Shown: piece by piece, positions 1,941 through 63,933 of the stretch
How positions within the stretch are numbered: the stretch's first letter is position 1
Layout: each line of letters opens with the position of its first letter
Origin: Eimeria necatrix
Taxonomy: Eukaryota; Apicomplexa; Conoidasida; Eucoccidiorida; Eimeriidae
DNA length: 64,000 nt
Reading direction: 5' to 3'
NCBI RefSeq assembly: GCF_000499385.1
Contig: NW_013654440.1
Span: forward strand, 62,001-126,000
Made by a program: the position numbers and the translations under genes
Notes under the pieces: model-generated
Seen by the model: only the letters and a program-made list of their open reading frames with translations
What the model was told of the DNA's origin: nothing
Database searches by the model: none

Positions 1941-1977
<37 letters not shown>

Positions 1978-21580: not shown

Positions 21581-22161
21581 ATGGTTCGTTCCTTCGCCTC
21601 CTTTGTCTTTTTCGCCAGTCTTGCAGCTGTGACTGCAGCTGCGAGCGGCCCGACGCCGGCGCTGGGTTCCTTCGGATATGAGGCTCAAACCGCCTCACAG
21701 GTTTCAGTTGATGTTCCTCTGGGCCAGCAGAAACATGAAGCAATTTTACGTAGACGCTCTAGGGGTGCTCGAGTGCTCCTGGCGACGTCTGCGCTAGCCG
21801 CCACACTAGCAATGGCCTTCCTCATCATGCACTGCTTCATGTTGCTAAAGAATTCCCAACATCGTGGCTCCCGCCTGCGCCGACTTTCGTCTGATGATGA
21901 AGGTGCATGCGAAGTAAGCCGTGGTGATTCAGGGATGAATAAGGTTCGCCGGCAGGTGGCCCAACGAATGCGAATCGACTCCAACGACCGCAGCTCATTG
22001 GGTCTTACGTTATGCTGCCGATTGCGAACCCGACGCTTTCGTTTGCCACAAGTAGATACAGATTGGCCAGTAGTGGCTTCGCCTGCTGCCGAGCTCGCCA
22101 ATGGGGACAGACGGGGGGATGAGGCGTCGGATATCGAGGGACGAGGAGAAATGCTCGTCAG
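21581..22161 (+). CDS. Exon 1: signal peptide and single-pass transmembrane protein
   Basis: The ATG at 21581 (context GCGAAAATGG) begins a signal peptide (residues 1 to about 21, [19 protein letters not shown]). A luminal part of about 40 residues follows, then a transmembrane helix at about residues 66-88 (VLLATSALAATLAMAFLIMH) and a basic/acidic tail containing RLRRLSSDDEGA. The frame closes with TAG exactly across a donor: CGTCAG|GTAGAG (exon end 22161, phase 2), or alternatively CTC|GTCAGG (exon end 22156, phase 0, which would suit the downstream single-codon exons). No family is recognised. This organisation is common in secreted or apical-organelle coccidian proteins. The 191-codon minus-strand frame across it is a shadow. 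Confidence 0.7.
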
Positions 22162-25100
22162 GTAGAGGCCGTAAATTCGCTGTATTTGCAGCAAGTGGGT
22201 CTTGTCAATGCAGCCCCTGCTTTGCATACAGGGAGCACGTGAAGGGCCTCCTTTACTCAATATTGAGTCTTGCTTTGCAAGCGTATATCCAGTGTTCCCT
22301 TGAGCTTCCTACGTTAAGAGTGCATGCGTATTGCAGCATGGTTTGCATGAGTGGTGGTTAAATGTAGGGATCACACTTATTCCTTTATCTTGCTGACTTC
22401 ATGCGCCTCCATCGCTTTCTCGCCTATTCTCTTGCGCCTTGAGCTCGGCGTAACTTGCCTTGTCAACAATACAGTACTGCGGTTGCCTGATTACATGATC
22501 GGCGCACGCCCTTTTTTGGGACTGCTGCCATACGGTTTTGCTGGTATCCGCGGGAGATCGGTTCGCTGCTTGCATTTGCCTTCACCATGTTCAGGTGGTA
22601 AGTTCTGCATTGTAGGCTCAGATTGGTGCCTTTCCAGAGGAGCTTTCCGTATTCTTGGTTGTTTGTGAAGCCCGTTTGCCGCCTGCACTTGCTTTTGCCA
22701 GGTTGAGGAGGTGAGTTTTGCATTGCAGGCTCAGATTCGTGCGTTTCCAGAGGAGCGAGAGCGGCCTGCAAACCTCCCCAAACGCTCCAGGGTATTGTGG
22801 CGAGTTTTGCATGAGGTGTGCGTGATTGTTGGGAGCATGTCCCTTCGTTTAGATTATTGACGCCGCGATCATTCAGTTTTCGTTTTCTTGGTTGTTTGCT
22901 CCTTGGGCCTGGCGTGGCTCGTGTTGTCAATTGGACAGTTCTGTGTTCGTCAAATTACGGGGCGCGGCGCAACGCTTTTTTTGCGGATACTCCCAGGTGT
23001 GTACTGTGTCTCCGCGTGAAGCCCGTTTGCCGCCTGCACTTGCTTTTGCCAGGTGGTGAGTTTTGCATTGCAGGCTCAGATTCGTGCGTTTCCAGAGGAG
23101 CGAGAGCGGCCTGCATACCTTCCCAAACGCTCCAGGGTATTGTGGCGAGTTTTGCATGAGGCGTGCGTGATTGTTGGGAGCATGTCCCTTCGTTTAAATT
23201 GTTGACGCCGCGATCATTCAGTTTTCGTTTTCTCGGTTGTTTGCTCCTTGGGCCTGGCGTGGCTCGTGTTGTCAACTGGACATTTCTGTGGTCATCAAAT
23301 TACGGGGCGCGGCGCAACGCTTTTCTTGCGGATACTCCCAGGTGTGTTCTGTGTCTCCGCGTGAAGCCCGTTTGCCGCCTGCATTTGCTTTTGCCAGGAA
23401 GAGGTGGTGAGTTTTGCATTGCAGGCTCAGATTCGTGCGTTTCCAGAGGAGCGAGAGCGGCCTGCATACTTCCCCAAACGCTCCAGGGTATTGTGGCGAG
23501 TTTTGCATGAGGTGTGCGTGATTGTGGGGAGCATGTCCATTCGTTTAGATTGTTGACGCCGCGATCATTCAGTTTTCGTTTTCTTGGTTGTTTGCTCCTT
23601 GGGCCTGGCGTGGCTCGTGTTGTCAACTGGACAGTTCTGTGTTCGTCAAGTTACGGGGCGCGGCGCAGCGCTTTTCTCGCGGATACTCCCAGGTGTGTTC
23701 TGTGTTTCCGCATGAAGCCCGTTTGCCGCCTGCACTTGCTTTTGCCAGGCTGAGGAGGTGAGTTTTGCATTGCAGGCTCAGATTCGTGCGTTTCCAGAGG
23801 AGCGAGAGCGGCCTGCAAACCCCCCCACAAACGCTCCAGGGTATTGTGGCGAGTTTTGCATGAGGTGTGCGTGATTGTTGGGAGCGTATCGATTCGTTTG
23901 GATTGTTGGAAGAATGTCCATTCATATAGATTATTGGCCGTGTGCCGTTTTAGTCGCGCAGATGTTAGCATGGCGTTTTCTGGACTCTTTCTACACGTTT
24001 TGCGTGTTTTCACGTGAGGACAGTTCTATGCCTTCATTTATTCTTTCCAAGCGGGGGATTTGAGTTCTGCACTGCAGGCTCAGATTCATCTCTTTCCGGA
24101 GGAGTGGGATCGGTTCGCCTACCTGCCCAAAAGTTTTGGAGTGTTGTGGCAAGATTCGCGTGAGATGTTCATTGCTACAGGGAGTCCGTTAATTGTGCCT
24201 TCATTTATTCTTTCCAAGCGGGGGATTTGAGTTCTGCACTGCAGGCTCAGATTCATCTCTTTCCGGAGGAGTGGGATCGGTTCGCGTACCTGCCCAAAAG
24301 TTTTGGAGTGCTGTGGCAAGATTCGCGTGAGATGTTCATTGCTACAGGGAGTCCGTTAATTGTTTTATGTTGCTAATGCTACGCGCGTTCGCTTCATGCT
24401 GTTAATGCTATGCGCGTTCGCTTCTTTTCCGTATGTTCTCATGCCTCGTGCTAGTTACTTTGGCAACGGGGCATCAATGCTCTGTGCCTCTGCGTGAGGC
24501 CGGTCTCCCGCGTTCATTCATTTCTTCCAGGCTGAGGGAGTGTGTTTTCAACTGCGAGCTCAGACTTGTGTCTTCATAAGAACGAGAGCGGCTTGCTTGC
24601 TTCGCGAGAAGCTTCAGGGGTCCATGGCGAGACTAGCACAGCTTATGTGTAGTTGCAGGGAGTACGCCTTGTTTAGTGGTGCTTAGCGTTTTGTGCAAAT
24701 CATACACGGCATGAACCTGCAGGCTTGCTGCTTGTTCTGTGAGACGGTGGAGTGTGGTGAATAGGAGGCTACCGATATGCACGCTGCGGCTGAGTGGCAT
24801 GCGAGAGCTGAATGAAGGGCGCTTTTCCTGCTTCGCGACATTCGTCTTTGCGACAGGAGTCTCCTGATCATGGTTTCCAAGTTGCAGGTGAAAGCATTCT
24901 TTTGCATACGAGTGACTTGTTGAGGTTTCCTGCTGACAGAGCTTGCAGGCTTCCCGTTTCGTGCAATATTGATTATAGGCCCATGCATTCGATTAAGCTT
25001 TCAGTGGTGTTGGAGTCGGTTGAGTTTCACAACTTGGTGCTGGTGGGGAAAAGACGTGTGGAAGTCACACACAGCTGCTACGCGCTAACATGCGTGCGTG

Positions 25101-28100
25101 GCACGCTGTGTTGCGCATGCTCCAGTTGCACAGTGAAGTCAAGGAGAAAATGCTGCAGTTGATTGCATCATGCGTACATCGGTTTTTTCCTTTTGAGAAC
25201 AGTCTATTGCCGCTGCGGCAGCAATGTAGTGCGTGTCAGACACGTTTGTTGTTCCCCAGGTAGTGCGTCCATACGTGGCTCTGATTTGAAGAATCGGTGG
25301 ATCTTTTAAGGATGGCGTTTGTGATTGCGCGGGATGAGGCCGTGCAGCACTTCAGCTAGAGGTGGCGCGCATCTAAGATACCAGCTATGGGCCCTGGCAT
25401 CTGGTTACTTCTCATGGGGTTTTGGATGATTCTGCACAGCTTGTTGGCGCACGCAGCAGTGGCAGTGGTTGGTAGTGCTGCAGGGTTTGATGGGCTGGCG
25501 ACGTCGTGGGGTAGTGACTGCTGGCTTGCTGTCATTCGTCGCCTCAGACAGTGCGTTGATATCACAATTTGGCAACGGAATATATCCGAAAGCGGCTCAT
25601 GATTGCTTTTAATATGCACGGCTCAGTCAAGCTGGCCTGCTTGGTACAGTGGTACCCATGGGCGGGAGTGGTTCGCCACTTGCTGAGAAGAATATGCATG
25701 ACTTAGGAAGTGCGCAGCAGTCCCCTTCTTTCCTGCCATTGTAGCTGTCCGCAATCCGTCACTGCTTTAATTGAAGGCACTGCCAAGCTCACGGACAAAA
25801 ACAATGGGGCAGTTGCTAGCTAAGCAAATGATGCGCGTGTGTTTTAGCACTCGTCGGCCCTTAGAGGACTGCGTAAGCAGTCACGAATTCGGGAAATTCA
25901 CATAGTGAAGGTACGGGCCACTTTTTCGCTGTAAGTAGTGCAGGGTTTAGGATGGTGCGTATAGAGTAGCAGTACAGCGTGCGGCGCTGTGGCAGAGATG
26001 GCACTGCTGGTATAGGAAGTGCGTCTACAGAATTTGCTAGCTCATCACCAAAATAAGTTGGAAAGGTACTGCAGGCTGCCGAATTGATGGGACAAGACGG
26101 CGGTGGGACAGCGCGCTCCTCGTACCAGTGGGGCGGGCCGCCAGTTAAGTCTACAGGGAAAAGTGCCGATCTAGTCTTTTGGCAAGAGAGCCATCGGCGT
26201 ACTTGCAGAGAAACAGTACACCATGCGGTACTGCTACTCTTGCCACTGTGGTGTTGTAGGAAGTGCGCCAGTAGAGTGTGCCGGCCCAGCATGTAATTGC
26301 TCTAGTTCGTTGTGAGGCAGACAATGGAAGGAAGTAGCTGCAACAGGGTGCTTCTTTGGTGATCTAAGTTGATAAGCATGCGTCCACCGGTCCAGGTCTT
26401 CTTAACTGCCGCTACTGCCACTGGCTAGCGCAGCAGCACAGTGTACATCACTAACAACTATTTGCGTAGCCGCATTTATTTGATTTGTTCGCATGCTGCA
26501 GGCAGTGCGTTAATGCCGCGATGCGGCTATCTCTGCTGTTCAGGTGCCTGCCCAGGACGGATCTCTGGGATCTTATAATGATCGAGTTCCATGCCGAGTA
26601 AACTACTGTTTCTTCTAGCGAGTGCGTTTGAAACGGTGCCGCACGCCGATTTGCAAAATGCAGGCAAAGCCGTGCACAACTATCCAGGACGCGAATGGTC
26701 CAGCATTGCCACTTCGGAATGCACAAGCAACCAGGTTTTCTAATAAATAATTGTTGAACTCATGGAACATGTGATAGGAGGAGCACAAGCCTAACGCACT
26801 TGGGGCAGAAAGTGTGTCTGGCAGAAAACCGACAGCAACGCATTTCCATTTCTGCTTACTTTACTGCTTGGGGCGTTGCTCTGCTCATGGAACTTGGGCT
26901 TAGAAACTTTGGTCTTATCTGCACTTAACTGACTTGGTCACCAACATGCTCCAGGCGGTGCGTCTGCGCTTTTGCCAGGCGAAACGGGCGTATGCCGGCT
27001 GAAATAAGTAGGCTACTGTCAAACAGAAATAGTGGTTGCTGCTTTGGGGTATTTCTCCGCAGAGGTAGCGAGGAGAAAACAGAGGAACTCGAGATTGGAT
27101 CGAAACAGAGGGTGTGTTGGATTTCTTGCTTTAATATTGTTTGTAAATGAAATGCCTTGTGGGGACTGGACACCTTCTTCTAATTTTTGGATCGCCATTT
27201 CGATGTGCCAGGATGTGGGTCGCCTGCCGGCTGCCTCTGGGCAGGAGGTTTGCTTGTATCTACGTAGCTGGGCTCATTGTAATAGGAATGTAATTGTGGA
27301 GCTAAGCATATCTGAGTGTCTGCTGCGGTGGGGTCGGCAAACATGGACCAGCAAGTGCGCAGGACATCTCCATGATGAAATGCGGTGCATCGTACAGGGA
27401 ATTTGACGCCTAGCGCTTCGCCACGTTTTTCAGCTTTTCCCGTTTTCTTAGCCTTTCATTTCCTAGGCAGTGAGTTGGTGGGCTGTGTGAGTACAGGGCC
27501 GACGCTGCCCTCCAGAAGCAGTGGCAGTCAGAGCACAGTGGCAGCACTGGAGCAAATCGGTTTTTGCAGTAAGACGGCCAGAAAGTCTTTTAGGCGCCAT
27601 CTATACTGTCGCTGCTACTGCTACAATAGATGCTTGCCGATAGAGCAGGACAAACTTTCATATATCCGAACCTCAGTGTTGGATTATGTGGAATGATCAG
27701 ATGGTATGTTAGTTTTTCGGCAAACTCATCTCTAGGGGCCGTAAAGGGAAAGCAAAATACCTCTAAGGCAAATTGGATCACTGTCAAAACAGGACGTGTG
27801 TATATTTTCAGTGTTAGTTGCTTTGAACGTTTAAGAAGCTTGAGTTCAGGGTGCGTTAGTGAGCACCTTTGTGATTTGGACTGTAGTGATATGCCCAGTG
27901 GAAATGCGGAGCCACTAAAAGAAGTTAATGTTGCTCGACACAGGCAGTATGCTTGGACACTTGATGAGTAGAGCAAGTGCCACGCTGCGTCACTGGTACC
28001 TAGGGCCATCCCCTACGGAGGCCCCTGAATGGCTTTTGGCACTCAGTTGGCCATACCGGGTACGAGGGTTGAGGTTTTAGAGCCTAGGACTGAGGGTTTA

Positions 28101-31100
28101 GGGTTTAGGGTTAAGGGTTTACTAGGTATCCTCCGTTGAAATGCTGGCCAAAAGTACGTTTGATTACTCAGCAGAAGAGAGCATACTCCTGATGCAGTTC
28201 GTACGTTTGCCGCGCCGGGATATTGCGTGTCCACTAGGTGTTCTTGGCATTCACTTGCGTGGTTAGGCGACGAGCTCATAAATTACCGGCCGCAGAGTCT
28301 GTGGTTTACTAGTGATGGATATTGGCATGGCTTAGCGAGTGTGTTTCCTGTAACTCGTTGTCCTACAAGACGTTGAAAGGATTGCGTTTTCGGGGCGGAG
28401 GATTTTTTTGCGGAGTTACGATTAAGCACTGATAATGTGCAAGTTGATGGCGCAGGAAGTGAGTGTAACAACATGGCCTTTTGAAGGCAGAGAATGTTTC
28501 GCCGAGGCCCCATTGAATACGTGAGAGGAACTCTTAGCGTGCTCAATGCTGTGCAAGAAGCCACCGTGCTTTATGAGTTTAGTATGTACGTTCGTACGGG
28601 CCGTTTAGTGGCCAACTATGTTAATCAATCGTTGCTTTTGACGGAAGACTGCCAAAACACCCATCAGCTCACCGGCGGTGCTTTGTTGTTGGGAGTGAGC
28701 TGGCAGTACCCAGCCACTAGCAGCGCTGTGTTATAACCGCTTGCGTTACTATTATCTCTTCAACATCCCCGTTTCGCCTGGCATGCGTCTTGACCACTTG
28801 CGACGCTGCGCTGTTATTGGTTCGCTATCGTGTAGATTGTGCGTCTTACGCAAACCTACTACGAAACCTGTCTGGGCAGCGCCGCTTCAACCTGCGTTTG
28901 AGGCATGAATCTACGTTGCTTGGGATACCAAACAGAGTGTAGGTGAAGCGAGCTAGATTTTACGCCGGCGATCTTCTCAGCATCTACTGAACCCCATCAA
29001 GGCTTTGAGCCAAGGCGGTTTACGGAAGGACATTTTTGACGATAGGCCGTGCGCGATTTGGCTCTTTTAGATCGGCATGTGATGCGAAAATGTGTAGCGA
29101 TGAACAGCGCGTTGGTAGCTCATACTCTGTTTCGTAATGTTGGAGGGCTTCGAAGCACACGCCACGTGGACATGCAACTAGCTGCAAGATGACCAGACTC
29201 TCCATGTGACATAAGTTTGCACTTTCGCATCGCGAATGAGGCGACAGCAGAGAGGCTTTGCTCCTTTTAAACGTGCGTAGTTCAATCCGCTGACGTTTCG
29301 AAAAGGGAACTGTTCATTTCTTTGCGCTGCACTGCTAGAGCATATTGCATTTCTTAGACAGTGCGCAGGCTCCCACTAACAGATATAAGAGGGTTAAGAG
29401 TCAGCCATATGCACGCTGCTAGCTAAAAAGGCAGGACATGGAACTACACAGTGCCGGCGTGCGGTGACTGAGGCAAAGCTGCATAAAGTGGTAAATTTTG
29501 ATGTCGTAGGAAGTTCGTTTCCACAAGGTCTAAATCCAAGAATAGCATACATGCTGGTGTGCGCCACTTGGTAGCCGGAGGCCGTTCAGTGGGCTTTATT
29601 CCGTTGCCTGCGGATACTGACGGCAATTATCTTGACCGAAGTAGCCCACGAATATTCGGCGTTTCTACGCGTTGCACGGCGATTACCTCTGCACTGTTTT
29701 CTGTCTAGAATGGAGTTAGCCAGTAACCAGTGCTGCGTTGACATTATAGAGAGTTCGTTTCCGAATAGAAGCTAATCAGGCCTGCTCTTAGTATTTTTCT
29801 GCAGCATGCGCAGTACGTGCTTTTCGGACGTGAACCATGAAAAGCAACTGGGGAAACTTATTTCGTATGGAACACTTTTCGGACGTGAACCATGAAAAGC
29901 AACTGGGGAAACTTATTTCGTGTGGAACAGTCAGTGCGTGTGCCATTTGATGCATTGCGTGGTGGCGATGGAACATTTTTGTTCGGCAGACGATTTGCCA
30001 ACAGCCAGCAGAGCAGGCCCTTGAGCACTCCCGTAGATGCTTGTCCACATCTAATGCACCTTGATTCTTGGTGCGGCATGAGCTATTTGTTGCTGAACGT
30101 GTTGAGTGCACCAGGTTTGTTCGGATGGTGAATTGATGCGGAGGCGAACCTCCTGTTCCGCAGTTCCTGGGTGCAGTCAGCTCTGACGTCAACAGAACAA
30201 GCGCGAGCTACATTCACATGTTATAGCACGTGAGCTCGATCAATAGCTAGCTGACGAAGCACCTAGATGCTACATTGATGGTTGTCTAACAGGTACTGGC
30301 ATGGCAGTTTGTTAGTTTCTTTCACCTTGACTACAGGCGCATGTTTTTGTTGGAACAGGAAGTACGCCCAAGGAAAAGAATTGCACACTTTCCAGCACAT
30401 GCTGGTACTACACTGCATGCGTTTTGGTGCTGAGTAGCTTTGTGTTAAAAGATTATTTTGTCTGTGCCCGTTAAAGGAAAAGAATTGGACACTTTCCAGC
30501 ACATTTTGGTACTACACTGCATGCATTTTGGTGCTGAGTAGCCTTGTTTAATAGATTATTTTGTCCGTGCCCGTTACATGAGTTCCTGATTTGCCTTGTA
30601 CTTGTCCGTATGAAATGCCTACATTTTCCCAAAGACTATTCCTTGTTTTGTTCCCGAAACGAATAAAACAAATTGCTCTTCCAGGGAGACCTAATGAGGA
30701 CAATAAAAATTCGAGAGCTTTGCATACGAAATTAGCAAATATTAATATATTAAGTGTTTGATGCTCAGATACGTGATACTCAAACAATGTCATGAATTAC
30801 ACTGCGTAGGAGGTAAGTTCTGGAGACTGATTGCATTGCACGTTTCGGCATCTCCGCGATACCTGCTTGTAAGGAACTGCGGTAGGTTTTTGACATTACA
30901 CTGCAACGTACGCAACAAGGCAACGCCACCATTTCCATAGCTGAGTGGAATATGCGGAGGTGTGCAGCTGAGCTGCGTTGTGACACAGACAGTGGGCTTG
31001 TACTCAAATCCTGCTTGTGGCAGTTGCATCTTGCCAGGCAGCTTCAACAATGTTTTGCCTTTCGGCCGAATTCGCAAGACCCTGACTTGTAACTCGGCTG

Positions 31101-34100
31101 GCTGAATTGTTAGTTGTACTGTTGAAACAGATCGTGCGCCGAAGAAATAGAATGCTTGATGTAGATGAATCACCGATAGCCACTACTAGTATTCTTATCT
31201 GCTTGCTGACTGCATCCAAGGCAAGCCCGCATGACAGCGGTGACTTGAGCGTGTATGAATTACGAAGAGAGTAAGTTTGCATGCGCCCGTATCATTCCAC
31301 TACACTTGCATCCGAGAGAAACGCCCCATGCAGTGGCAGGAGGCTTATTTTTGCAGCGTGAGTAAGGCTGTGGGATCTGATGGCATGAACCAGCTGGTGC
31401 GTAAAAAATTCATGGATATAATGGCGTGTACTCAGTGCTTTGTCATGGGCCTGGATAATAACGGATTGCTTCTGTTGGAAGCACACTTGCGGGATGCAGG
31501 CAGTGGGTGTCGTTAAATATATTCCAGTTGCACGAGGTAGATGATCTCACAATCTCCTCGGCTGAGAAGCTTTGACAAGCATTAACAACCGTCTACTTTA
31601 GAAATGACGCAAACCTTTAAGCATGTACGTTTCTGTCAGGCGGCACATCGTCGTTTAGGTGGCTCAGTGAAAGTAGTTGGGAAGACCGCGAAGGCTTTTT
31701 TTTCTTGGCAAGGAATGATACCGTTTAGCGCGTGCGTTTGGTGTCTCTACCCCTCCCCGCATTTCACCTTCCACCCTGAACGGCTGAACGCACTTGGCAG
31801 GCTTTTCTGAGTGTCATTGCCTTCACATGATCATTCCTGGGGGATCTGAGCCAGCTTGTGCGTCGGACTTGAGTATCTCCTGGCGGACCCCTGTATCAAA
31901 CAAGTGGGGTAGATGCGATTTATCAAGTGGAACACAGGCCATGGCTGTGCTAGAAAGGAGTTTTTCTCTCAGGCGGTGCGCTGATGTTGCTCGGCAGTGT
32001 TCAACGTAACAGTGACTAGTTCCAGCGTGCTGTTTTTGACGGCGCAGCGCAACAGGGGAACGCTATTGCTGTTGAAGGGGTTTGTTAATTTAGGATGTGA
32101 GATTGTATTCAGAGAGCATTTTGGAAAGCCCAAAGAGACCAGTTGCTCGTTGCTTTCTATGGTGTCCGACGGAGGTAATGAAAACGATTTACACAGCTTG
32201 CGGCTTGAACTCATACTTCTGCGTAGGCAAAAACACACAATGCGAATCGGCAGGCGAAGCCCCGCATTGCTTTCTCGGGAATTTATTCGCTCTTACTCAG
32301 ATGGTGCGCTTTTGTTCTTGTGCCGCCCATTATATAGTGCGCCCAGTAGCATCAAGGATGGCACTGCAAAAAGACTGGCAGATGGGCGAAAATCTGAGTT
32401 GTTGGCTTTGCCTGTCTCATGCCACAAAGTGCTGTTTGGTCAGTGCCTACTTGCACGGTTGGGCATTCTTGCTTTGCTTAGATTGTACGCTTACGGCTAT
32501 ACTGAATGTGATTTTATCATGCCGTTTCGAGAAAAATGAATTGTTCTTTCGAACACCATAAGCACCGAAACGGCATGACAGTGGAAGAAGGCCTACTTGC
32601 ATTTTGCGTGCCTGTGGGAGCGCAGCATTACAGTTCTGAAGATTTGTCTTCTAATAAATTCATGCCTTGAAGGAAGCGTATGTGGGTGTTAGTTACTCGA
32701 TACTAGTGGAATGAAGAACCTGCGCAGAAATTAATTGCAACATTGGCTGGTGGCAGTAACCTTAGCACTGCATCATCTATGTGCATGGCGCTTACCAGCC
32801 TGCATCGGAGGTCAGGACAACACGGCAACGTTTTTGCGCCGCTCAATGAGCCGAGGGGTTACTGCGACAGAATTGGCCAAACTTTTTGAAAGCCTGTGAG
32901 CCTTTTTTTATAGACCGCAAATGCGATGCGTTGTTCACATGCTCATACTGGGGATCCAGCAAGTAGTAATTGAGTCTTTGAAAAGTAGTAATAACATCCT
33001 CGTTCTAAATGTGATAAGCAAAGAAGAGGCATATCAAGCCTAGACGGTCTGCGAAGTGCAGGAATGGCGAGCGCGGCATGCGAGTTTTGTAGTGCAACGC
33101 CTGTTGCCTGTGTTGCATTCCGGACGTTTTCAACTGCACATTCCGCCTTTGAGTGTGGCAGGCTGGTTTTGGTTCTGAATAGAAAATGAGCAAGATGGGT
33201 TCTAGGCGATAGTGCGGTCGAGGTCCAACGTTTCAACGGGGTAAGACGGATTCAAGTATGGCATATGACATAATGGAATTGTGTTGCGTACTATGCCAAA
33301 GAAACATGCTTGGGACGTTGGCAAAACGATGACAAATCAAACGCATGGTGTCATTGAACCTACACGGCGGTGATGTGCTCAGCACAGCAAGCATAAGTCT
33401 TACCGGTATAGACAGTGGGTCTGGCATGATAAAGGGGCCACTAATTGCTGGTCCAGCAACGTTGAAGTGGCGTGCGTCACTCTAAAAAGCCATTTGCGCA
33501 GTAGCCACTATGATGGCACTAAGCGGTAGTGCCTTTCTGTAGAGCGGAAAAGGAAAATTGATGAAGCCTGGTCGGTTTGTAAAGCTGGAAAGGAGCACGA
33601 GTATATTAATGCATGACACTGGATCAGAATGCGCTCATGATAATGGCTTGGCCTATGCAGCGGTGAAAAGAGATGAAACGCTCGTTCTCTATTTGGAGAC
33701 AGGAACGGTGAAAGTGTTTTTGTAGTTAGAAGCTCCTAGTTTGACTCCCAGCCCTTCAACGCTTGCTTGCCCGTTATAAAGCTCATGGGAACATGACAGT
33801 CTATTCAGTTGAGGACAAACATCTAGTTCGTGCGTTCTTCGTTATACGTCTTTATTTTTAGAGCTTGATTGAGACTGAGCAAGCGTTCAAATCCAAGGTC
33901 AGAGCCGTGGAAGGAGCTTGAGAGTGTGCTGGGATGACTGCAAGGCTTCTAGGTTGCTGTATCTTGGGGCATCTGCCTGATGAGCATTGGTGCAAGTGTG
34001 TGTATGGCGCTTGCCGGTCTGGTAAGAAGTTCAGGACGACATGTCAACGCTTTTGCGCTACTCAGTGAGCCGAGCGGTTACTGCGACAGAATTAGCCGAA

Positions 34101-37100
34101 CTTTTTGAAAGCCTGTGAGCCTTTTTTTCTAGACCGCAAGTGCGATGCGTTGTTCACATGCTCGTACTGGGGAACCAGCAAGTAGTAATTGAGTTTTTAA
34201 AAAGTAATAATAACATCCTCGTTTTAAATGTGATAAGCAAAGAAGAGGCATATCAAGCCTAGACGGTCTGCGAAGTGCAGGAATGGCGAACGCGGCATGC
34301 AAGTTTTGTAGTGTAACACCTGTTGCTTATGGCGCATGCCGGAAATTTTGCATTTTCCGCCCTTGTGTGTGGCAGGCTGGTTTTGGTTTTGAATAGAAAA
34401 TGATGTGCTTTAAGCGAACATGTGCCTTTGATTTTGCTCTGACGGGCTCTGAGGCCACGCCAGTGGCGTACGTTGATGCTGCTACACTGCATATGCTGGA
34501 CGGATTGAAAGAGTGGATCGAGGATTAACGTTGCAACGGGGTAAAGAGGATGCAGGTATGGCATATGGCATAGTGGAGTTGTGTTGTGTACTGCGCCAAA
34601 GAGACAAGCTTGGGTCGCATGGCGTTCCTGAAGCTACATGGCGGTTAAGTGCGCAGCATATCTAGAATAAGTCTTCTAATCGGGATAGTCAGTGGGTCTG
34701 GCATGGCGGAGGGGCCACTAATAGCTGGTCCAGCGCCGTTAAAGTGGCGGCTGTCACCCTACGGGCCAGTTGCACAGTAGCCACTATGATGACACTAATT
34801 GGTGGCACCTTTCTTTGGAGCGGAAAAGGAAAATTGAAGAAGCTTTGTTGGCTTGTAAAGCTGGAAAGGAGGTTGACTTGTAAAGCTGGAAAGGAGAACC
34901 GGTTCATTAATGTATGATACTAAATCAGAGTTCGTTCATGAAAATGGTTTGAGCTATGCAGCTGCGGCAAGAGGTGTTAAAAATCATTTTCCATTCAGAT
35001 GATTTTCCATTCAGAGACAAAAAAAAGGTGAAAGCGGTTTTGGCATTAGAAGCTTCGAGTTTGACTTTCAGACCTCCAACGCTTACTTGCCCTCTGAAAA
35101 GCTCATGGGGGCATGACGGTCTATTCCGCTGAGGGCAAATGTCCAGCTCGTACGTTCTTAAAGTTTGATTGAGACTGAGCAGCGATAAACTCCAAGTGCA
35201 GAGCCGAAGAAGAAGCTTTTGAGTGTGCTGCGATGACTGTCACGCTTCTAGCGTGCTACATCTTCGTTACTGGGCATCTACCTGATGAAATGCGCCACGT
35301 GCGTTGGCGTTTTGGGGCGATTGCGTTTTCGGTATCCTTGCGCAAGAGTATAGAGTCTAAAATCGTCACCGCATGTGGCTCAGACCGTGAGGTTTTTGTC
35401 ATCCTTGGAAAGACAGATTTTCTCTTCAGATTGCTTGCTCAAGTGCGTGCCAAAGGGTTATTTTACACGGAAAATGGTAAATGAGTGGTTTGGGCGATAG
35501 AGTGTAAGTCCATAGCCCAAGCACTGGCTAGTTATTTGGTTTAGTGGATATGCACCAGCGTGAAGAAGCAATGATCGCGCTCTACAGGATGCCACTTAAT
35601 ACAGCTAGTGCGTCTCGGCACCAGATTTGTGCACTTAGTCATATATATGTTTAGATGCAATTGCCTGATTTGAATTCATGCGTGTCAGCGTCCCCTGAGT
35701 CATTGTCGCACCGCGCAGTTTGTGCGTAGAGAAGAAACATATATGCAGCCAGAGTTGCCTGTGCCAGCTTGTGCTCGGCGAAGGGAAAAATTGTGCAGCG
35801 ACGGAACGGCTTTGACAGTGGGCTTAACTTACATGTGTGGCTAAGGGGGTAGGTCGAGGATTTTCGACGGGAAGGATTTTTTGTTCCAGAAGGCAATTCC
35901 TTCGGTGCAAATAATGTATGTAAAAATGTATCAAATTACGCAGGATGATAGCATGGAGTTGTTGTGGATGAAACAGAAAGTTAGTCGAGCTCACTCACAA
36001 GACATGCTGGTTCTCCAAGCACTAGCGAGCGTTCAGAACATAGGAGGAACACTAACTGTGCGAGAGGATGGCGACATACTGACCAGGCCGTGAGTTCTAT
36101 ACCTCAAGGCTAGCACGCTCGCAGGCCTGATACCTTCTTACGGATATCCGTTTTGCACGTAGCATGCTTTGCATGTGTTAGTAACCTCGCTCGCACCATA
36201 TTGAGCAGGTTGTGCGTTAGGGATGAGAGGCCTTTCATGCACGCAGAGCTGAATCATTGAGATGGCCTGATGGAGTTCATGCAAGTGGTGGTGTCGGACT
36301 GGGACGATGGATCATGACGATTGCAGGAAGTGCGTCTACAGTCCCTTTTGCTTTGAATGGAGCGCTTGCGCCTCGTTGGATGCGTATAATGTAAAATTTT
36401 AATTCGCGGGAGAAGTTCCTTGGGCTTCGAAAGCTTGCATTCGTATGTTTCAGTTCGTGTGTTTCGAATCATGCGAGTTTCTCACTTCTCTTTGGTAGCC
36501 ACATTGTGAACGAAGAGAGCTATTGCACTACGTGCACATGGCATCCCTAATGAAGCTCTGTACGGCCAAGACAATGGCGGTGTTGGTGGGCAAAACGGCT
36601 GGGACTTCAGCGATAGTTCATTCGCAGGTATGCTAAAGCCAAGCGCTTTTGAGCAGTTTGTACGTCTTTTCATAGCCTGAGCGTGTTTTCTGCCATCAGA
36701 CCACAGCAGTCCTGTCACATTGTGGAAAGACCCTTAATAGCTGCGCCTTAACGCATTTGGAGGAGAACCAGATAAACCGTGATTTGATGAGCATTTCGCT
36801 CCTAATCTCTACCCTCTGAAGCTTATATTTTTTCATTGCATTTTTGGTTTACAAACAATCACATTTTTTAACCTAATAAACCGTATTAAGCAATAACAAT
36901 AATAGCATGTCAAAAAAGTGTGTATGGAGAGACTGGTGCAGAGTGTAAGCATACGGCGTGCGTAGAAAATTTTTTTATGGGCTGGAAGAGGCTACAGTCT
37001 GCTAAGCATAGCATCTGTGGCTGAGTCCGGACTTCTCAGGCTGTACGGACTTAGACCACATTTGCAGTGCTGACGAAAAGCATTGGTGGACGTAATGGGT

Positions 37101-40100
37101 GGGATTATGCAGAAGTATGAGCTCTTGGATTCACGTCGGGAAATATGCTGAGTAGGGTTAAAGACTCTGCAAAGAGACCATATGTTGACGGCAAATACAT
37201 TGCAGAAGGGTGCACAGCTGCACTCTAGTTAGTCTCAAGACGGCGTTTAGCAGTGATGCGGCCAGTTTGGGATGCATTTGTTGTCTACAGATGGTGCGTT
37301 TGCAGAACGCGCAGCACAAGCATGCATTGATGTAAACAAAAAGCAGCTTCAGTGGCACATGAAGGGCAGAATGAATTGCAGTGCTGCGTAGCCACGGAAA
37401 TACGTGTGGGATGCTAATAATGCAATACCCAAGGACGTGAGTGGACTGGGTTTCCTCAGGAAGAGAAATCTTTGTGAATCTCTGAAACGGTAATGGGCGC
37501 GCCATGTATCGCGATTGCCAGTCAGAGCATACAGTGCAGCATTTCAGGCGCAGCACGTATGGTCCAGCAAGTATGTTTGTGAAGCTGCTTTCCGGATCGT
37601 ATTTGTTACGTTTGATATGCCCGCATCATAGTCTCCACGTTTACGATGCGGCGAACAAGCAAAGCCACGGTGCTAACAAACATGGTACAGGCAGTGCGTT
37701 CGCCCATCCTAAAACAGTGCTATCTACAGATATGCCTTCATCGAAGCATCCATTGTCGATTTTAGTCAGATGCGTGTAAGAGTGGTCCTAGCAACTTTCA
37801 GAGATATCAAACGGTATGCTCACAAATTTCGAAGGGTCCGTGTACAACAGACGGTTGTAGTGGCTCGATGCTTCTACATGTTGCTCAGGCAGTAAGTTGC
37901 GTTTTTATCTTGCCTACCTCGCATGCATGCACACATGCTCGCAGGAAACAAAGGCAGGATAACCAGCGCAAATCAAGGGCAGCAAAGTAGTGCAGCTGTT
38001 GCGGAGCTGAAATCATATGCTTACAGACGGTAAGTTACTATGTTCCCTGTAGAGTGAGCGAATGAATACTGCGAATAAAAGTAGCCTCCTGCCTCTCGTT
38101 GAACAATGAATCGCGTGTCTTTTACGTTTGCTCCACTTGGCTTGTGTGCAGACGTTTTGCGGTGTCAAGGGTGTTAATATCGGATATGATGGAGAGAAAT
38201 GCAATCATGCGAAGGTAATTTTCCTCAGCAAGTGAGTCAATTGCTGCCGTCGTTTTGTGGCGCAGCGTCGTATTCCGGAACTCATTGAGCCAGGCTGCGT
38301 AGTGCTGCTTGGCAAAGCGTGTAGCAGCTCTGTGCATTTAAATTATTCATTTGCATACTGTTGGTGCGTAAGAAACACATTATGTAACGCTCTATGGCGT
38401 GAGTTGGCATCTCTTGTCCAGGGAGTATGCTGACTAATGAGTGGTATGGCTTCATTTTTGTGCTGTGGCAGATCGAGATTGCATGCGTTGCTAAAATTGA
38501 ATGCGTTTTTGTATGCATATCCGCCTGATGTGCAAGGTCGCTGATATGCTGATTGTGTGTTGCGGGAAAGCATTTGGATGAAAGTTGAACGGCGGGAGAT
38601 ATCTCGGTCAACCAATCATGCGACAAAGGTCGTACGCCTGACTTTGACTGTCGACGTAGTTTTCCGCTACTGTATTCAAAAGAATTTGTGTCAAAATAAT
38701 TGCCTTCTTGAAGGATAGCGCACATTTGGATTAGGTACATTACAAACTCTATCTTTAATTTTACTGTTTGGGTTTTCGAAGGTCGTACGCCCGTGCTTTC
38801 CTATCGCCAACAGAACAGATTTGCGCAAAAAGAAGAAATCGGAGGCCGCTAGAGTCTGCATACAACTGGGTTTTTTGAAGCGAAAGACGCATGCTACCCA
38901 CATTGGCAATATTTGGCTGTGGCTGGACTTCAAATGAGACGACTTCGAGGGTGAGCGCTCACTTTGGGGCGTTTGGGCTACGCAGATTGTAAGTTTGATG
39001 CCGTTGAGCTGCGCCACTGATGTCGTTGCCCCAGTGCGCCAAAAAGATGTCGTAACTGACGAATGTCTTTGTGTGCCGCCCAGATCTGGAAGCATGCGAA
39101 CTTTTTGCCTGTTTTGCGAACGTATATGGGTAGTGATTGTATTACGCAGCTCACGACTTCTGCAAGAATGCCCACATCCGAGTCAGCCTTTGCACTATTG
39201 AAATTCCGTGTGAAAGCTTAAGCCCCACAGTCCCAGTACGGAGTTTATTTATTTGAATGAGCAATAGATGCATTTCAGGCTTTCCTGTGATACCGACCTG
39301 TGGCTTGGGGTTTGCCAAGAACTGTTTGTGCATCTCTCCTTCGGTGAGCATGCTTTTTTCTCTCAACAGATGGTGAGTCTACTGCTATTAGTGGCTGTTT
39401 GGCGTCGCTAGCGATTTGCTTCATATTGGGAAAGTTAGTGGCTCCGGTTAGTTGCTTGGGACTATTCCTCTGTCTGCATATTGGGTTTTGTTGAGGCGGG
39501 GAGCTTGTGACGTTTCTTTGACATTACTTTCCAATGCTGCGAGATATGTGCGCTACGACAATGTTTGTTGGGCGGATGAGGTCTGGTTGAACTTCAGATG
39601 CTGCTCCCAGGAAGACGCATCCATTGGGTCGGCGAACGGTGCAGCTTCCTTTAGTTGATGATTGTACCGGCTCGTCGTAGAAAATTTACTTGGAGAGGTG
39701 GGCGCTGCTTTACCTTACCCTGGTGGCTTTGAGACCGATGTGAGGCCCATGAGGAAGCTGTATATTGTTTAATGAAAACGCGCCTTCCAGTAAGAGAAGC
39801 CAGATAATCTAGCTGACCGTAGCTGCAGTAGGGCATATAAATGTTTGGAGAAGCAAGTTGCTCCATGCGTAGTAGAGCGACCTTAAAAGGACAGAGATTT
39901 CTGTCGGGAAAGCAGTGCAACGAATTTGATAGAGCAGACGGCATGCATGCATGGAGCAGCCAGTACGTAGGCCAGGAGTCCCTCGAGGCAAAAGGCTTAC
40001 AGTGAATCAGGAAAATAACGAGAAGCTCGCAACGAAACAAATGTGCTGACACTTGCCGAATTTGCAGAGCTAACTGCATGCATGGAGCAGGCAGTACGTA

Positions 40101-43100: not shown

Positions 43101-46100
43101 AATGAGCAGACGGTATGTGTTTCGAGGGAGCCGCTAAAACATATCCAGTCTTCGAGAGAACTTCCAGGTCTTTCACGCGCCTTTGTCCGGTTAAAATGCT
43201 GGCTGGGCCAGGATGTACGTACTTTGAATTGCACTCTCAGATGCACAAAAGAGAATCACTCGACAGATCAGTTCGCGAAGGAGAGGATTGCTTAATTGGT
43301 TTGAGCGCCGTCAAACGTGCCCGGAAATGGCAAAGATTGTGTGTTGGCACTGGCTGCCGAGGCCACTTCGCTAATGTACTTGGTGCTTGGGGAGCTAGAA
43401 CTCCTACAAACGCTTTCATGTGAAATATCTCTCCAAATCAATCTCCGCCTGTGTCGAACAGGATGCCGGCTGCGGGAAAGATTGTTCGTTTTTCTCATGC
43501 TAGCTTGCATATACATCTTTGCGATGGTGGGCAGATGAATAGAGAGGCTTTCATTGTTACGTCACTGTATTGGTGGGTTACAGCATTGCGTCGTAGAAGT
43601 GATTTATGTAATTCAGTCGGTACGCGCGCTTGAGTCGCCTGCCCAAGGCATGTGTTTTGTTCTTCAAGTGAATCAGGCGTTATTGATTGTTTCATGCCGA
43701 GTGAGGGTACGGAGCCTAACTTTGATGCGGCAGAGTGTATGTTCCGCATGCAACTATTGCTGGCCGCAAGCTTCACGTAGACACTTTTGTGAAGCACTGT
43801 AACTTTGTTGCAGTATGACACCGTGGGGTTTAGCGGCTTTACTGGCGCAGGCCGTGCGTGTGGTGATGTTTTTCGAAAATAGCCGAAACTACATAGTGGG
43901 GCGCTGACATTGAATTTTGAGACAACGCGCAATACAGTTTACCTGAGAAATGGAAAGTGCCCCCAACAGGGAGTGAGCTTCTTCATATGTTGTTTCTAGC
44001 TCAAATCCCTTTGAATCTCTGTGAGGACATGCATTGCGCGATGCCGCTTAATCGAAAGGCAAAAAGCCGGATGGCGCCTCACAGTGGACATCGCAACTGT
44101 TTAGCACGTACGTTTATTGCCGGGATAATTAGATATGAGACATCACATAGGATGACGTTGAGAAACTGGCGTTGTGGGCACGTTGCCAGTAAATATGGAG
44201 CATACAGTTTTGCCTACACAACTCGTGACAGGCAGTGTGTTGGGGAAGCAGCTAGCAGCATGCGCTGTTCTGATTAGTTTGTGTGTGTGCGTACACGGTT
44301 CAAGTGAGTAGAATACCTGGGAATACGATAGCTTAGAAGGGGGCATTGGCGTTGCATTGCACAGGCAGTGTGTAACCACACATATGCGCTTAGTTTCATA
44401 CAGCGTGAATCCGCCGCTTCGCCAGCACAATTTTGGGCGGTTACAGAACGCCCTTGCGTGCTTCAGAGCCAGAGCTCACCTTCAGGAGGACCTGTTTTCT
44501 AGACAGGCTGGATACTGTAACTTTGCTTTCAGGAGATGACAGCGTAGCTCTAGAGCATTTAATAGATTTAGGGAAATATGGCATGCCACGTCATTCTGTT
44601 AGAAATTGCTAACTCTGGTTCACAGTTCTGGCTCTAGTCAAATCGTATTGCGTGCTGACTGATATACGTGGCAAACAGCTGCCCTTCTGCCTGCGCGTCA
44701 CAACGATCTGCGTGCAAATTGTGCTGTACACTTTGGGCACGGTGCATTATGTAGTCTTTAGAGAGGGTATATTTTTGGAGTTAAGAATTAACTGGCGCTA
44801 AATAGGCATTTTCCTAGTAACAGTTACCTGGTTTTCTCACGAAGACTGTGCGTGTGATGCCCACTCGCAGTTTGGCTTTTCGCAACGGCGTTTTAGGGTT
44901 CTCTCAGGGGTAACGCAACTACTCACTGCCATCTCAACGGAATCTTTCTCTGAAACGCAGCTCATCCTTACAGGCAGTATGTTGGTTTAGTGTTTGAAGG
45001 TGGCCACATGTATATTCCCCCGGTTCGGTAGAAACAAACCGTCTGGACGTTGCGTTGCAAAATCTCGCTGCATGACGTAGAGAGTAAGTGTTCTGCCATC
45101 TGCTATTCGCAAGCGAAGTGTGCATGAACTGGTGTGCTTCGTTGCAACGGCGATTCTGCATCACAGTAATCTGTCTCAGACGGTAGGTTGGATCAGGTGT
45201 CAGGCCGGTTGGCTAATCTGTTTCACGATACGTCCTTTTGCGGGTTCATTCTTGTTCGCTTTCGGAGAGGAACGAGAATCGCTCGTTGAACGGGCAATCG
45301 CTGGCATTGTCAAAAACAGGCAGTAAGCAGACCGTTTGACCTGGTCTACCTGACTGTTGGACAGACGCGCTGTGGTACCATATACACGCACATAGGCGGC
45401 AACTGATGTTGGACCACGTTGACTAAACTATATAGGCAGTGCGTTTACAGCAAAATCTCATGCGAGATATGGCTTGGTGGACGGTTGTGGGTGCCAGCAC
45501 ACCACTGCAGCACACGCAGCTCTTCTAAACAAGAAGCGGAGATCGGAGCTGATCCTGGACATCAGGCAGTATGCCACTGCCGAACACAACAGGTTGCGCT
45601 GCCACAGAGTAGACTAGGGAACAGTACTTGCATGGAGGTGGAGAGGAACTGCGCGCCAACTCACATACATTTAACGCAGCTTGTGAGTTAAACACACTGT
45701 GAAGGACAGTGTTCGCCTCTGACAGGGCTTGCCTGTCTAACTCCGTATTAAGCTGTTACTTTGAAATTGCCCATGCGCTACTGCAGGCAGTATGTTGGCA
45801 CTCCACTGTTCTTTTGGACCCTCAATGCATCTACAACGAGCGCGATTTGGCACCCGGTGTAGAGTTATTGAGGGTCCAGGACAGGTGAAATGTACTTTCT
45901 AACACTGAGGGATTGACAGCCCTCTACATCTTGCTAAATAAATGCTAAAGCCGTGGTTCTCTGCCCAGCATACTACCCCTTCGCCCACGGCGCCACAGCT
46001 GCGTGTTTTCTTGTTTTGTTCCCACGTCCGCATGAGATGCCTTTACATTGTTTTATTAGATTTAAAAGGATGCTGAGTTACCCCTTTGGTTCAGGCTGTG

Positions 46101-49100
46101 CGCTAGCATGAACAGCACGAATGGGGCTACTAACTGGGTTGTGTAGCAGTCGAGTCTCTTAAAACCAGAGACCAATGTAGTTGGTAGGAACATGACATTT
46201 CTTTTCGACCAGAAAATACTTGTGTAAAGAATCTGAGCGAAGAAGCACCAACGCGCCCAATCCCAGCAGTGCGGAATGGTACCGTGGATGGAATCTCTCG
46301 GGCGTGATGCGCAGCAGGACCTACTAGTTTCTTGTCCCATTTGTGCAGTACAGATGTTGGGGCTCGCTGAGAAGCCAAGAAACGTATGGGTTTCCAAAGG
46401 CATTTGGCATCATGCAGGCAGTGGGTTGAGGCCTTCAACAGTTTCTTGTTAGCTGATTACGGCTGTTGCCAGAGGCCAAGACCTTGCTGCATTAGACTTC
46501 CACATCGGGTTGACAACATAGGCAGTACGTTTTACACTTAAATGAAGTATTGCTGGGAGTACTGCTGGTAGCAGCTTCGACGTGGTTTACTCGTTTTTCA
46601 TTAGAAAGCGCACACATGCTGAGGTGGCCACATACTGTTTCAGAGTAAGTGAGCTCGACCAGTCGGTGAGTTTGCATGGGCTCGCAGAGCTGCTCATCTC
46701 ATACAGCCTAACAGTTTACTGCATCTTGACATTTATATGCCCCCCAATGAACTTCGTGCTGATGGAGATGGAAGCGGTTTCAGCAGGCTAGTACGGAATC
46801 TTGCCGGCTGGTCCGATATGTAACTAGGAGCTCTATCCGGTATGCTTGTAAGAGAAAAGTTTAACGCGTTTTTCAAAATGCTTTGGAACATAACAGCTGG
46901 TAAGTTACTGATATCTTTGTGAAGTGTATAATTTGAATGTGTAGGGAGACTATTTTTCCGTACGAAACTAAGTAATGGCATGGCTACAATGATAGGGCGC
47001 ATATGGCTGTGGAGTAGGCGGTGCGTTTCCCCCCGTTTCATATTGTTTTTAGTTTTTAAATTGTAGTAAAAGCTTTCGCGAGGGCTTGTCACAAAGCATT
47101 TTAGAGGACGACTGGCTTGGGGTAGTCGGTGAGCCTTTCCGAAGTGCTTGCAGTTGGCTGGTTTGGCGCGTTCAGCTGCTCTTGCTAAGATATTTTGTGA
47201 CGGTACAGACTTTGGCAGCGGTACGAAATCTTTACGCGTAGTGGATGAGCTCAAGGATGCATTGCATATGGGATTGCTTAGGCAGTGAGTTGCCTGCAAA
47301 GGCAGGCACGCCGCACTGTTGATATGGTGCAAGTTGTTCTGCTAGTCACGTCTCTTTTCTGGTATTTTTCATGTACTTTTTCTTTTCCCAACTTCCATGG
47401 AAAGTCGCTTATAGGATGTTGTTGATCGTTTTGTAGGCTCGGAGTCAGTGCAGTTAGCCAGTGCAATGCTGTTCCGCGAGCAATTTGGGTATGACACAGG
47501 CCGTGAGCCCTCAATCATGTTATCTGAGAAGTAGTTATGCTTCTAGGGGGAAAAGTCAGGTTTGTACTCCGATTTTCAAAAATCGCAATCCAGCGTGTAC
47601 GTGAAGCACATTGGCTCTGGGAGGTAGCGTGGCTGGCTAAGTAAGCTTGGGTGCATTGTGGTGCAGTGAGGGTCCTGCTAAGAGTCTCCGTGACATAGAT
47701 CACGTCACTTCCATGCCTAAGCTTGTGAGCCTGCGAAGATGCGCCCGAATCAGATGTGCTGGAGATCAGCTAATCTGTTGTGTAGGAAAGGGCTTACGAG
47801 TGCGCACATCAGAGCATCGGAGTTCAGACGCGGCCAGCAGGCATTGGTGTAAAAAAGAAAAATACTTGTCTTTCTTTTTGTAGAAATAACGTAATTTTGA
47901 CGAGGTTTATTGCAACTTCTTAGGACTGCTTCTTTGTCCTGGCGAAAGCAAATCTAAATGTAGACCGTGCGCTAGTCCCTGATTGCAGCACAGTGGATAT
48001 TGCAGGCGTGTGATGGAACGGACAGAATTGCTGATTTTTGGGGCAGAATTTCTTTCAACAACAAATCTTGTACCTAAGGGACAGTCAGGAAGGAATTGGT
48101 GTCTTAGCAGGTGCGTTGTTTTGGGGTGTTCGCACTCAGTGCGCGTAATCACTGCTCCGTCTTAAAGAAATAGATATGTAATGCAACAAAGCATGCGATC
48201 GTTACTGCGGGCCTGTTCCTAACAGGAAGTACGTCTGCTTCGACTTCCATTTGTAAAAACAGTGATTAGGCTGATCTCATTTGAACGTTTTTGCTGCCTG
48301 CTTGAATTTGTCGCTTACGTATTACTCTCACGGCACTACGATGCTTTGTACAGTGTGTGAGTTACTTTCTCTGCCGAAATTGAACAGTTCGGGCCTAGCT
48401 ATCCATAATGAGGCAAAGCCATTCAGCGGGAAGAGGAGAACTCGAAAGAAGTCTGGCAATCATCAGAAACTTGGATTTTCTATGTTGAAGGAGTGCATTT
48501 GGAAAAGGGAGTGCGTTAGGTACACGCTTCTGCGCCTGGACGATGCCTTCTGTTGAGACATTTGTCGCTGGGTTTCTGAATGCTGTTAGGCTGCTGAAGT
48601 AACGGAAGCCCTCGGCCCGTATCGCGCCTGCATGCCATCTCCCGAGAGCACGAACTCCAGCTACAAGCCATATTCCAGCTCACTAGGGTAAGGCCCTGTG
48701 ACTGACAAGAGCTTGTGTCGTTGCAGCATTAGCGCACTGCCGTCCAAGGCACGCCACAGCGTAAGGAGCACATATCGTTAAATCCAGTTATTTACGATAT
48801 ATATCACGCCTTCAGATGCACTTAGAGACTGGCGTCCTGGTCCCTCGCGTGTGAAGGCTACTGCAGCCTGCAAAGTTTGAAAATGCGTGTGGAGCTACTA
48901 AAAAAATGGATGCTTTTATTCTTGTCAAAAAGTAAACGGCATGTCGGCTTGCGCCCTGTGACGCTGTTCTATGGATGCAAGTGCATCTGTCATGCACGTG
49001 GACGGTGGCCTTCGCACAACTAGTGCCTGGCTAATGAGGCAATAGGTTCACTAGGAAGTCATGTAAATATAAAGCGCTTGCAGGGTATATTGATATGCGA

Positions 49101-63933: not shown

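Follow-up and report, generated by a model that had tools for sequence, protein, structure and literature searches.

Nearest described architectures

In Schistosoma mansoni, the micro-exon genes (MEGs) encode secreted proteins and are composed of many tiny exons, mostly multiples of three nucleotides (nt) in length, separated by longer introns; such genes have 10-20 short exons each, with a minimum of 6 bp and a commonest length of 15 bp in the body text and a range of 3-81 in the abstract (PMC10526429). Here we analyzed a locus of the coccidian parasite Eimeria necatrix in a stretch of 64,000 nt, hereafter the window, which covers positions 62001-126000 of the forward strand of the 139657-base contig NW_013654440.1 (C798) in a genome of 44.0 Mb and 1148 contigs. 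The locus is very probably one very long protein-coding gene, in which a first exon of 111 codons would be followed by about 245 phase-0 exons of one codon each (a few of three codons), separated by spliceosomal introns of mostly 100-140 nt. As in the schistosome MEGs, micro-exons in multiples of three stand in tandem after a first exon that is signal-like by eye, whereas the Eimeria locus belongs to a different phylum and its exons, about 245 in number, are 3 nt long nearly throughout.

The bicycle genes of aphids encode rapidly evolving putative effectors and contain on average about 17 exons, many of them micro-exons of one common phase, phase 2, while the gene megacycle has more than 100 micro-exons, of the order of 20 codons each, for about 2000 amino acids (aa; PMC9168663). 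The Eimeria locus shares with these genes the large number of micro-exons of a single common phase, but here the phase is 0, as judged from the stop-free phase and the donor of exon 1, and each exon holds one codon. As the phase is 0 here and 2 in the bicycle genes, the locus is therefore not a bicycle gene. The schistosome MEGs and the aphid bicycle genes are the nearest known architectures.

The spliceosome is expected to have difficulty with micro-exons, since both exon ends must be bound, and those of neurons and plants are isolated exons between normal ones, whereas here hundreds stand in a row. To our knowledge, 3-nt exons were previously known as isolated cases only. In recursive splicing, an acceptor directly before a donor allows the stepwise removal of an intron, and such ratchet points leave no base behind, unlike the present sites, each of which would leave one codon. 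Exons of 3 nt that are spliced by the spliceosome do exist among neuronal and plant micro-exons (PMC13149111; PMC8831610), and recursive splicing of long introns is treated in the review PMC13149111. Among the papers listed in searches on tandem 3-nt exons, apicomplexan micro-exons, and coccidian and protist exon structure, which covered few subscription papers and preprints, we found no gene built mainly of 3-nt exons.

If the proposed structure is correct, it would be the most finely fragmented gene architecture known to us, the length of exons in a natural gene would in practice have no lower bound, and the locus would offer a natural test bed for stepwise splicing and a model of protein evolution by gain or loss of single codons. 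Because ordinary gene finders and RNA mappers cope badly with exons of this kind, whole proteins of this parasite group may be absent from annotation.

Spacing, strand and extent of the array

An earlier note on this DNA had claimed about 160 single-codon exons in tandem on the plus strand at 24181..63933, far above chance. We scored the motif AG-N(k)-GTRNGY for k = 0-40 on both strands, the donor GTRNGY being fixed by the construction of this first search. At k = 3, the plus strand contained 193 matches inside 24181-63933 and 9 outside, and the minus strand 7 inside and 6 outside. Every other value of k gave 4-31 plus-strand matches inside this range, so that there is a single sharp spike at k = 3. 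Over the whole window and both strands, 215 matches were found at k = 3, while 100 dinucleotide shuffles gave 35.1 +/- 6.1 (maximum 49). The strand-specific excess and the almost invariable AG-GT spacing of three were thus confirmed, and neither an absent spike at k = 3 nor an equal count on the minus strand, either of which the note had taken as speaking against its claim, was seen. The base before AG was C in 63%, T in 27% and A in 8%, in agreement with the acceptors CAG, TAG and sometimes AAG that the note had described.

Since the array has tandem repeats and the region is G-skewed, the pattern could be thought to be an artefact of repeats or composition. The repeats are the following:

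22665..23908, plus strand: 351-bp tandem repeat of 3.6 copies, found by self-comparison; each full copy is one modelled exon plus intron
32780..35159, plus strand: two diverged copies of an array block, 80-88% identical; pattern matches at 32891, 33410 and 33825 pair with 34110, 34687 and 35145, and the model described below retains just 33412, 34689 and 35147 as 3-nt exons
39944..40986, plus strand: 131-bp tandem repeat of 8 copies, each of them one intron and one codon (GCA or CCA), reading P A A A P A A P

However, self-comparison showed few local duplications, a 2.6-kb slice of the array matched only itself in the genome, and the flanks of most 3-nt sites look unrelated to one another, apart from those in the 131-bp repeat and a few local duplications. 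In addition, shuffled and resampled DNA failed to reproduce the pattern. Chance, repeats and composition were ruled out by the self-comparison, the genome match of the slice, the shuffles and the resampled-sequence controls, and we give an artefact practically no credence.

Exon lengths were examined with a semi-Markov model that combines acceptor and donor profiles, leaves exon length free (1-330 nt, from a flat start) as well as intron length, and is blind to codons. The model converged on 3 nt, which is the length of 190 of the 212 exons in the window from 24.0 kb. Over 22.1-77.7 kb, 251 of 269 exons with a posterior above 0.3 were 3 nt long (a few are mutual alternatives), and 245 3-nt exons had a posterior above 0.5, with 192 in the window and 53 beyond it. 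When we ran controls from the same starting profiles, the expected number of 3-nt exons was 0.1 on the minus strand, 0.2 and 2.0 on the plus and minus strands of the upstream 21.5 kb, and 0.2 and 0.9 in two resampled sequences, versus 239 for the array. Inside 24181-63933, the 131-bp repeat contributes 16 of the 193 pattern matches as 8 overlapping pairs, of which the model retains 8. Outside this repeat it retains 164 of 177 matches and discards 13 (for example TAA at 46646, which lies 17 bases ahead of a better site). The model also accepted donors weaker than GTRNGY and adds 15 sites of this kind, giving a total of 187; the count of about 160 in the earlier note is near the number of matches surviving modelling.

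The array extends beyond the range given by the note and neither starts at 24181 nor stops at 63933. It begins at about 22.2-22.6 kb, where the earliest modelled exon, 22192, has a posterior of 0.34 only and the following one, 22595, has 0.99, and the interval between 10 kb ahead of the window and position 21 kb contains 0-1 sites per 2 kb on the plus strand. Downstream, the array runs past the window and reaches the contig end 13.7 kb further on, with 51 more pattern matches there; the site density is 5-9 per 2 kb beyond the window versus 5-15 within the window array, and 0-1 on the minus strand.

A 585-nt open reading frame (ORF) at 21581-22165 precedes the array, and just two of its GT positions score above 0 as donors, 21584 (1.13, right after the ATG) and 21914 (1.58). 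The donor at 21914 follows codon 111 and is in phase 0, the phase that the array behind it demands; among the micro-exon donors its score ranks low (5th percentile 1.31, median 3.36), and a phase-0 donor in exon 1 would arise by chance at one position in three. Judged by these donor scores, 21914 appears to be the single plausible exon-1 donor, so 21913 is a more likely end of exon 1 than 22161, where the note had placed it. The sole relative of exon 1 is a 146-aa protein of another assembly with no assigned function, which is 89% identical to the exon-1 ORF over its length; the differences, counted by eye, number 10 within the first 111 residues and 6 within the last 35. The modelled gene is composed as follows:

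21581..21913, plus strand: exon 1, 111 codons, ending GAA/GTAAGC; signal-peptide-like start, arginine-rich stretch, transmembrane-like segment, then RRLSSDDEGACE, the signal-peptide and membrane character being judged by eye
22192..63933 in the window, plus strand: phase-0 single-codon (3-nt) exon array from the semi-Markov model, with the last modelled exon at window coordinate 77253-77255
22702..22710, plus strand: probable 9-nt exon GTT GAG GAG (V E E); the acceptor at 22702 scores 1.98 versus 0.06 for the 3-nt alternative
23398..23406, plus strand: probable 9-nt exon GAA GAG GTG (E E V); acceptor score 2.11 versus 0.31 for the 3-nt alternative
23749..23757, plus strand: probable 9-nt exon GCT GAG GAG (A E E); acceptor score 1.98 versus 0.39 for the 3-nt alternative
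24531..24539, plus strand: probable 9-nt exon GCT GAG GGA (A E G); acceptor score 1.08 versus -0.59 for the 3-nt alternative
44974..48510, plus strand: run of 24 successive 3-nt exons with introns of 91-320 nt, no detected repeats and no self-match

These four early exons are read as 9 nt because the acceptor six bases upstream is clearly stronger. The tandem single-codon exons proposed in the note are otherwise supported, except that such sites seem to be spread genome-wide and not limited to one gene.

The distance between the 245 exons has a median of 150 nt, with 97 of 244 distances at 100-139 nt and one below 85 (61 nt). For 205 introns of 85-400 nt, repeats excluded, the median length was 143 nt (5-95%, 101-361), and the lengths modulo three were distributed as 78, 62 and 65. 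An in-frame stop is present in 179 of these 205 introns, and therefore the array is not translated through as one frame. On one strand, the sites combine an AG acceptor and a GT donor with consensus context: the acceptors are mostly C/T-AG with T preferred six bases ahead of AG, in a TTGYATGGCAG-like context, and AG is depleted before them in a zone limited to about -15 to -6. These intron ends bear on another explanation, namely that the intervening pieces are removed by a non-spliceosomal route such as DNA elimination or RNA excision by another enzyme. Exons of 3 nt are indeed difficult for ordinary exon definition, but the pieces begin with GTRNGY, end mostly with YAG and have an AG-poor zone ahead of the end, like spliceosomal introns. 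In addition, a ribosomal protein gene on the same contig has GT-AG introns and U1 and U6 genes are present in the genome, and we regard a non-spliceosomal route as highly improbable.

Coding evidence from the joined codons

When the 245 codons with a posterior above 0.5 were joined, phase 0 contained no stops, while the other two phases of the joined string contained 8 of 244 and 12 of 244. The number of stops expected was 6.1 by position-specific composition (P 0.002) and 11.5 by pooled composition (P 7e-6), and the AGNNNGT sites of the same region without a donor consensus had stops at 18 of 275. The array is open in phase 0 only and closed in the other two phases, as in a protein-coding sequence.

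The joined codons read VEVVEGGGGVTEEEARKARDQAMDAFREYISTERYSHEETIRLAHRLADMITSLTSLFGKAVEFFSAMDQ... and have the look of a helical protein, most visibly in one stretch:

25260..38988, plus strand: helix-like stretch (by eye), in which the exons with a posterior above 0.5 read V T E E E A R K A R D Q A M D A F R E Y I S T E R Y S H E E T I R L A H R L A D M I T S L T S L F G K A V E F F S A M D Q A A T Q G V V I

An alpha helix turns by 100 degrees per residue. We calculated the mean hydrophobic moment over 18-residue windows along the whole chain, not this stretch alone, and compared it with 5000 shuffles of the codon order (500 shuffles and 13 angles in an initial run). The moment peaks at 100-110 degrees per residue; at 100 degrees z was 4.2 and none of the 5000 shuffles was as high. 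With the repeats excluded, z was 4.1 and 2 of 5000 shuffles were as high. Five controls, namely the two other reading phases and the trinucleotides at +30, +50 and -40 from the exons, showed no helical periodicity (z -1.9 to -0.2 at 100 degrees). The ordered codons are helix-periodic, and residues next to each other in the protein are therefore encoded by successive exons. If the chain given by the model holds, helix-adjacent residues are encoded typically more than 100 nt apart, an arrangement with no easy explanation other than an ordered joining of the exons. Such a gene would encode a protein that is secreted or anchored in the membrane and contains a long helical region.

The same observations bear on the possibility that the sites are recursive splice sites or decoys in one long non-coding intron, with a trinucleotide that codes for nothing. 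Recursive splice sites are laid out with the acceptor immediately ahead of the donor, and the introns here are short enough for ratchet steps. However, known ratchet points have zero bases between AG and GT, and only 12 matches with AG joined to GT (k = 0) were found inside 24181-63933 versus 193 at k = 3. Moreover, stops are avoided in phase 0 only, stop versions of the pattern are at chance level genome-wide (see below), and the codon order carries the helix periodicity. Non-coding recursive sites were rejected on these grounds, and we consider them very unlikely.

Alternatively, the splice signals may be real and the codons optional cassettes, any subset of which could be skipped without a frameshift, giving a huge set of protein variants. 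Production of variants by exon skipping has been discussed for the schistosome micro-exon genes. With 251 of the 269 modelled exons at 3 nt, nearly every skip would keep the frame, the gene opens with a signal- or membrane-like exon (by eye), and in the schistosome 35 micro-exon genes, which code for secreted proteins, give at least 87 proteins (PMC10526429). On the contrary, helical periodicity over consecutive codons implies that most of them are included together, as one skipped codon would rotate the rest of the helix by 100 degrees. Based on these observations, we regard the cassette explanation as rather unlikely, though it is the most probable of the alternatives.

Single-codon sites in the genome and the probable route of splicing

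The sites recur outside C798. Among 20 sampled 10-kb stretches on other contigs (7 of 20 partly N), a strong one-strand excess at k = 3 was found in C250 (13 versus 2) and C350 (24 versus 2); L019 had 5 versus 1, and the others had 0-3 on either strand. When C350 was completed, the counts were 29 versus 3, and the stretch modelled alone prefers 3 nt (14.1 expected of 34). For the whole genome we used exact gap-free patterns with the same pattern reversed as the control, and the genome-wide claim rests on these patterns and on the two further stretches in C250 and C350. YAG-GCA-GTGCGT occurred 69 times versus 2 reversed, the sense pattern YAG-CRA-GTGCGT 110 versus 5, and the stop pattern YAG-TRA-GTGCGT 15 versus 7. 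The dead-donor version YAG-CRA-GTCCGT gave 33 versus 10, with CAG in 32 of the 33, and the 4-nt version YAG-CARA-GTGCGT gave 12 versus 1; being one letter longer, the latter is comparable to a quarter of 110, and although lower it is a weak control.

Because a CAG-repeat background affects the patterns with a CAG acceptor, we also used an acceptor of TAG only. The sense pattern TAG-VRA-GTRCGT occurred 139 times genome-wide versus 39 reversed, and the stop pattern TAG-TRA-GTRCGT 8 times versus 14. As three first letters give a sense codon for each one that gives a stop (controls 39 to 14), about 37 stops would be expected among the 147 TAG matches (binomial P 7e-10). Contig C798 itself contributes 9 of 69, 4 of 110 and 4 of 139 pattern matches. 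Among the matches listed outside C798 for the GCA, CRA and VRA sense patterns taken together, there are at least 232 distinct sites on 139 contigs, of which 45 have two or more and 21 three or more. Among those listed, neighbours 60 bases to 20 kb apart outside C798 are on the same strand in 84 cases and on opposite strands in 2, some of the same-strand pairs being tandem copies (C633, C483), and 4 of the 45 contigs are mixed in strand. As a rough guess from the small numbers that C798 contributes, the genome may contain a few thousand single-codon exons.

Five contigs (C779, C561, C514, C621 and C275) have 5-8 single-codon pattern matches apiece, on one strand within each contig. At C633:23481-26316, on the minus strand, six GCA single-codon sites are spaced at 550-589 bases, which suggests tandem duplication of exon-plus-intron units.

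Several points weigh against a very long gene of single-codon exons and against its wider occurrence. First, the 3' end of the gene and its full exon number lie beyond the contig end, so that the gene end is not seen. Second, the splice profiles of the model were seeded from 3-nt sites, and 18 longer modelled exons remain, 13 of which contain an in-frame stop; we take these 18 as filler where true exons were missed. Third, the stop test with position-specific composition gives only P 0.002 when this gene is taken by itself, and no helical periodicity (z 0.04) is seen in the peptide that raw pattern matches yield independently of the model; we ascribe this negative result to missed weaker sites and to false sites that would break the register. 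Fourth, no branch-point motif stands out: CTAAC and CTRAY have no clear positional peak in the 205 introns, in disagreement with the earlier note, which had reported such motifs at the right distance for several sites. Fifth, no relative of the joined peptide turned up among 5.8 billion proteins (one search scoring the 8000 candidates that share most words), in Pfam or in PDB; these general protein searches found no relatives, MEG or other, and included no comparison aimed at MEG proteins. Proof would best have come from a conserved domain, and none was found in the joined peptide. Finally, the 20 stretches pooled have no spike at k = 3 (76; other k 39-88), the excess being confined to 2 of 20; C250, when completed (22 versus 4), is weak when modelled alone (4.3 expected 3-nt exons of 44); and the patterns with a CAG acceptor carry the repeat background mentioned above.

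At the level of sequence, we take as established the exact 3-nt spacing, the strand specificity, the freedom from stops in one phase only, the ordered helix-periodic codons and the recurrence at many loci. We infer that the 3-nt pieces are present in mature RNA, as well as the route of their splicing. The GT-AG ends, the AG-poor zone, the U1 and U6 genes and the GT-AG ribosomal protein gene on the same contig speak for an ordinary spliceosome. U1 and U2/U2AF would be hard to seat together on a 3-nt exon, and because of this crowding stepwise 5'-to-3' splicing would therefore be the most likely route. In such a scheme, each intron would be excised as the growing exon is spliced to the following AG, and the newly added codon would abut a fresh donor GTRNGY that is used for the following intron, so that each site would act as a recursive splice site leaving one codon behind. 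The short introns and the donor right behind each acceptor would fit stepwise removal.

The array may have grown as intron-plus-codon units were duplicated again and again, and the tandem copies of 131, 351, 167 and 331 bp would be recent instances. Each of the tandem copies within the array comprises an intron and a single codon, and the splice signals are preserved, which suggests growth by unit duplication. A comparison of seven copies of the 131-bp repeat showed no variation in the AG and donor columns but variation at the first codon position, yet 104 of 131 columns are invariant anyway. When the introns were compared by blastn, there were no matches apart from local duplications, and a recent burst of one mobile intron is unsupported on this account.

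Taking the genome as a whole, we lean towards an architecture in which single codons serve as exons, with perhaps several thousand phase-0 exons over dozens of loci, growth and change codon by codon through intron-plus-codon duplication, and a spliceosome adapted to stepwise reading, perhaps by variant U1 RNAs able to pair with an A that precedes the donor. The U1 comparison covered four matches (C18, C912, C76 and C655; loci L027-L030), with a fifth, weaker match on C1123 outside it. Three of these U1-like sequences have ACTTACTTGG and the fourth has 5' ACTTACCTGG; one of the three, on C655, is below the family cut-off. In the standard pairing scheme, the changed U1 base faces the last exon base. 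The change from ACTTACCTGG to ACTTACTTGG would favour exons that end in A and is possibly an adaptation. Of the 3-nt exons, 49% end in A, and at least one ordinary intron also has A before its donor (CAA/GTGAGT, by eye), so that A before the donor may be a general trait of the genome. In mixed sequence, the donor context of ordinary genes was masked by repeats.

Reverse-transcriptase-like and protease-like frames adjoin the variant U1-like sequence in L030 (C655) at about 1500-2750 on the minus strand and have the look of a Ty3/gypsy retroelement by eye. Two U6 genes with identical scores lie 832 bases apart at C167:28423-29362 (L031, L032). The ribosomal protein gene on C798 encodes L15 (L004, about 6000-7809), is closest to PDB 5xxb from Toxoplasma gondii, and lies 2-4 kb upstream of the window start; with its ordinary GT-AG introns (by eye), it is a handy splicing control. 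Within the window, positions 665-4446 contain dense CTG/CAG runs, which give open Ala- or Gln-rich frames on either strand. Repeats of AGGGTTT, a mark of Eimeria, are present at 2536-2577 and 28093-28121.

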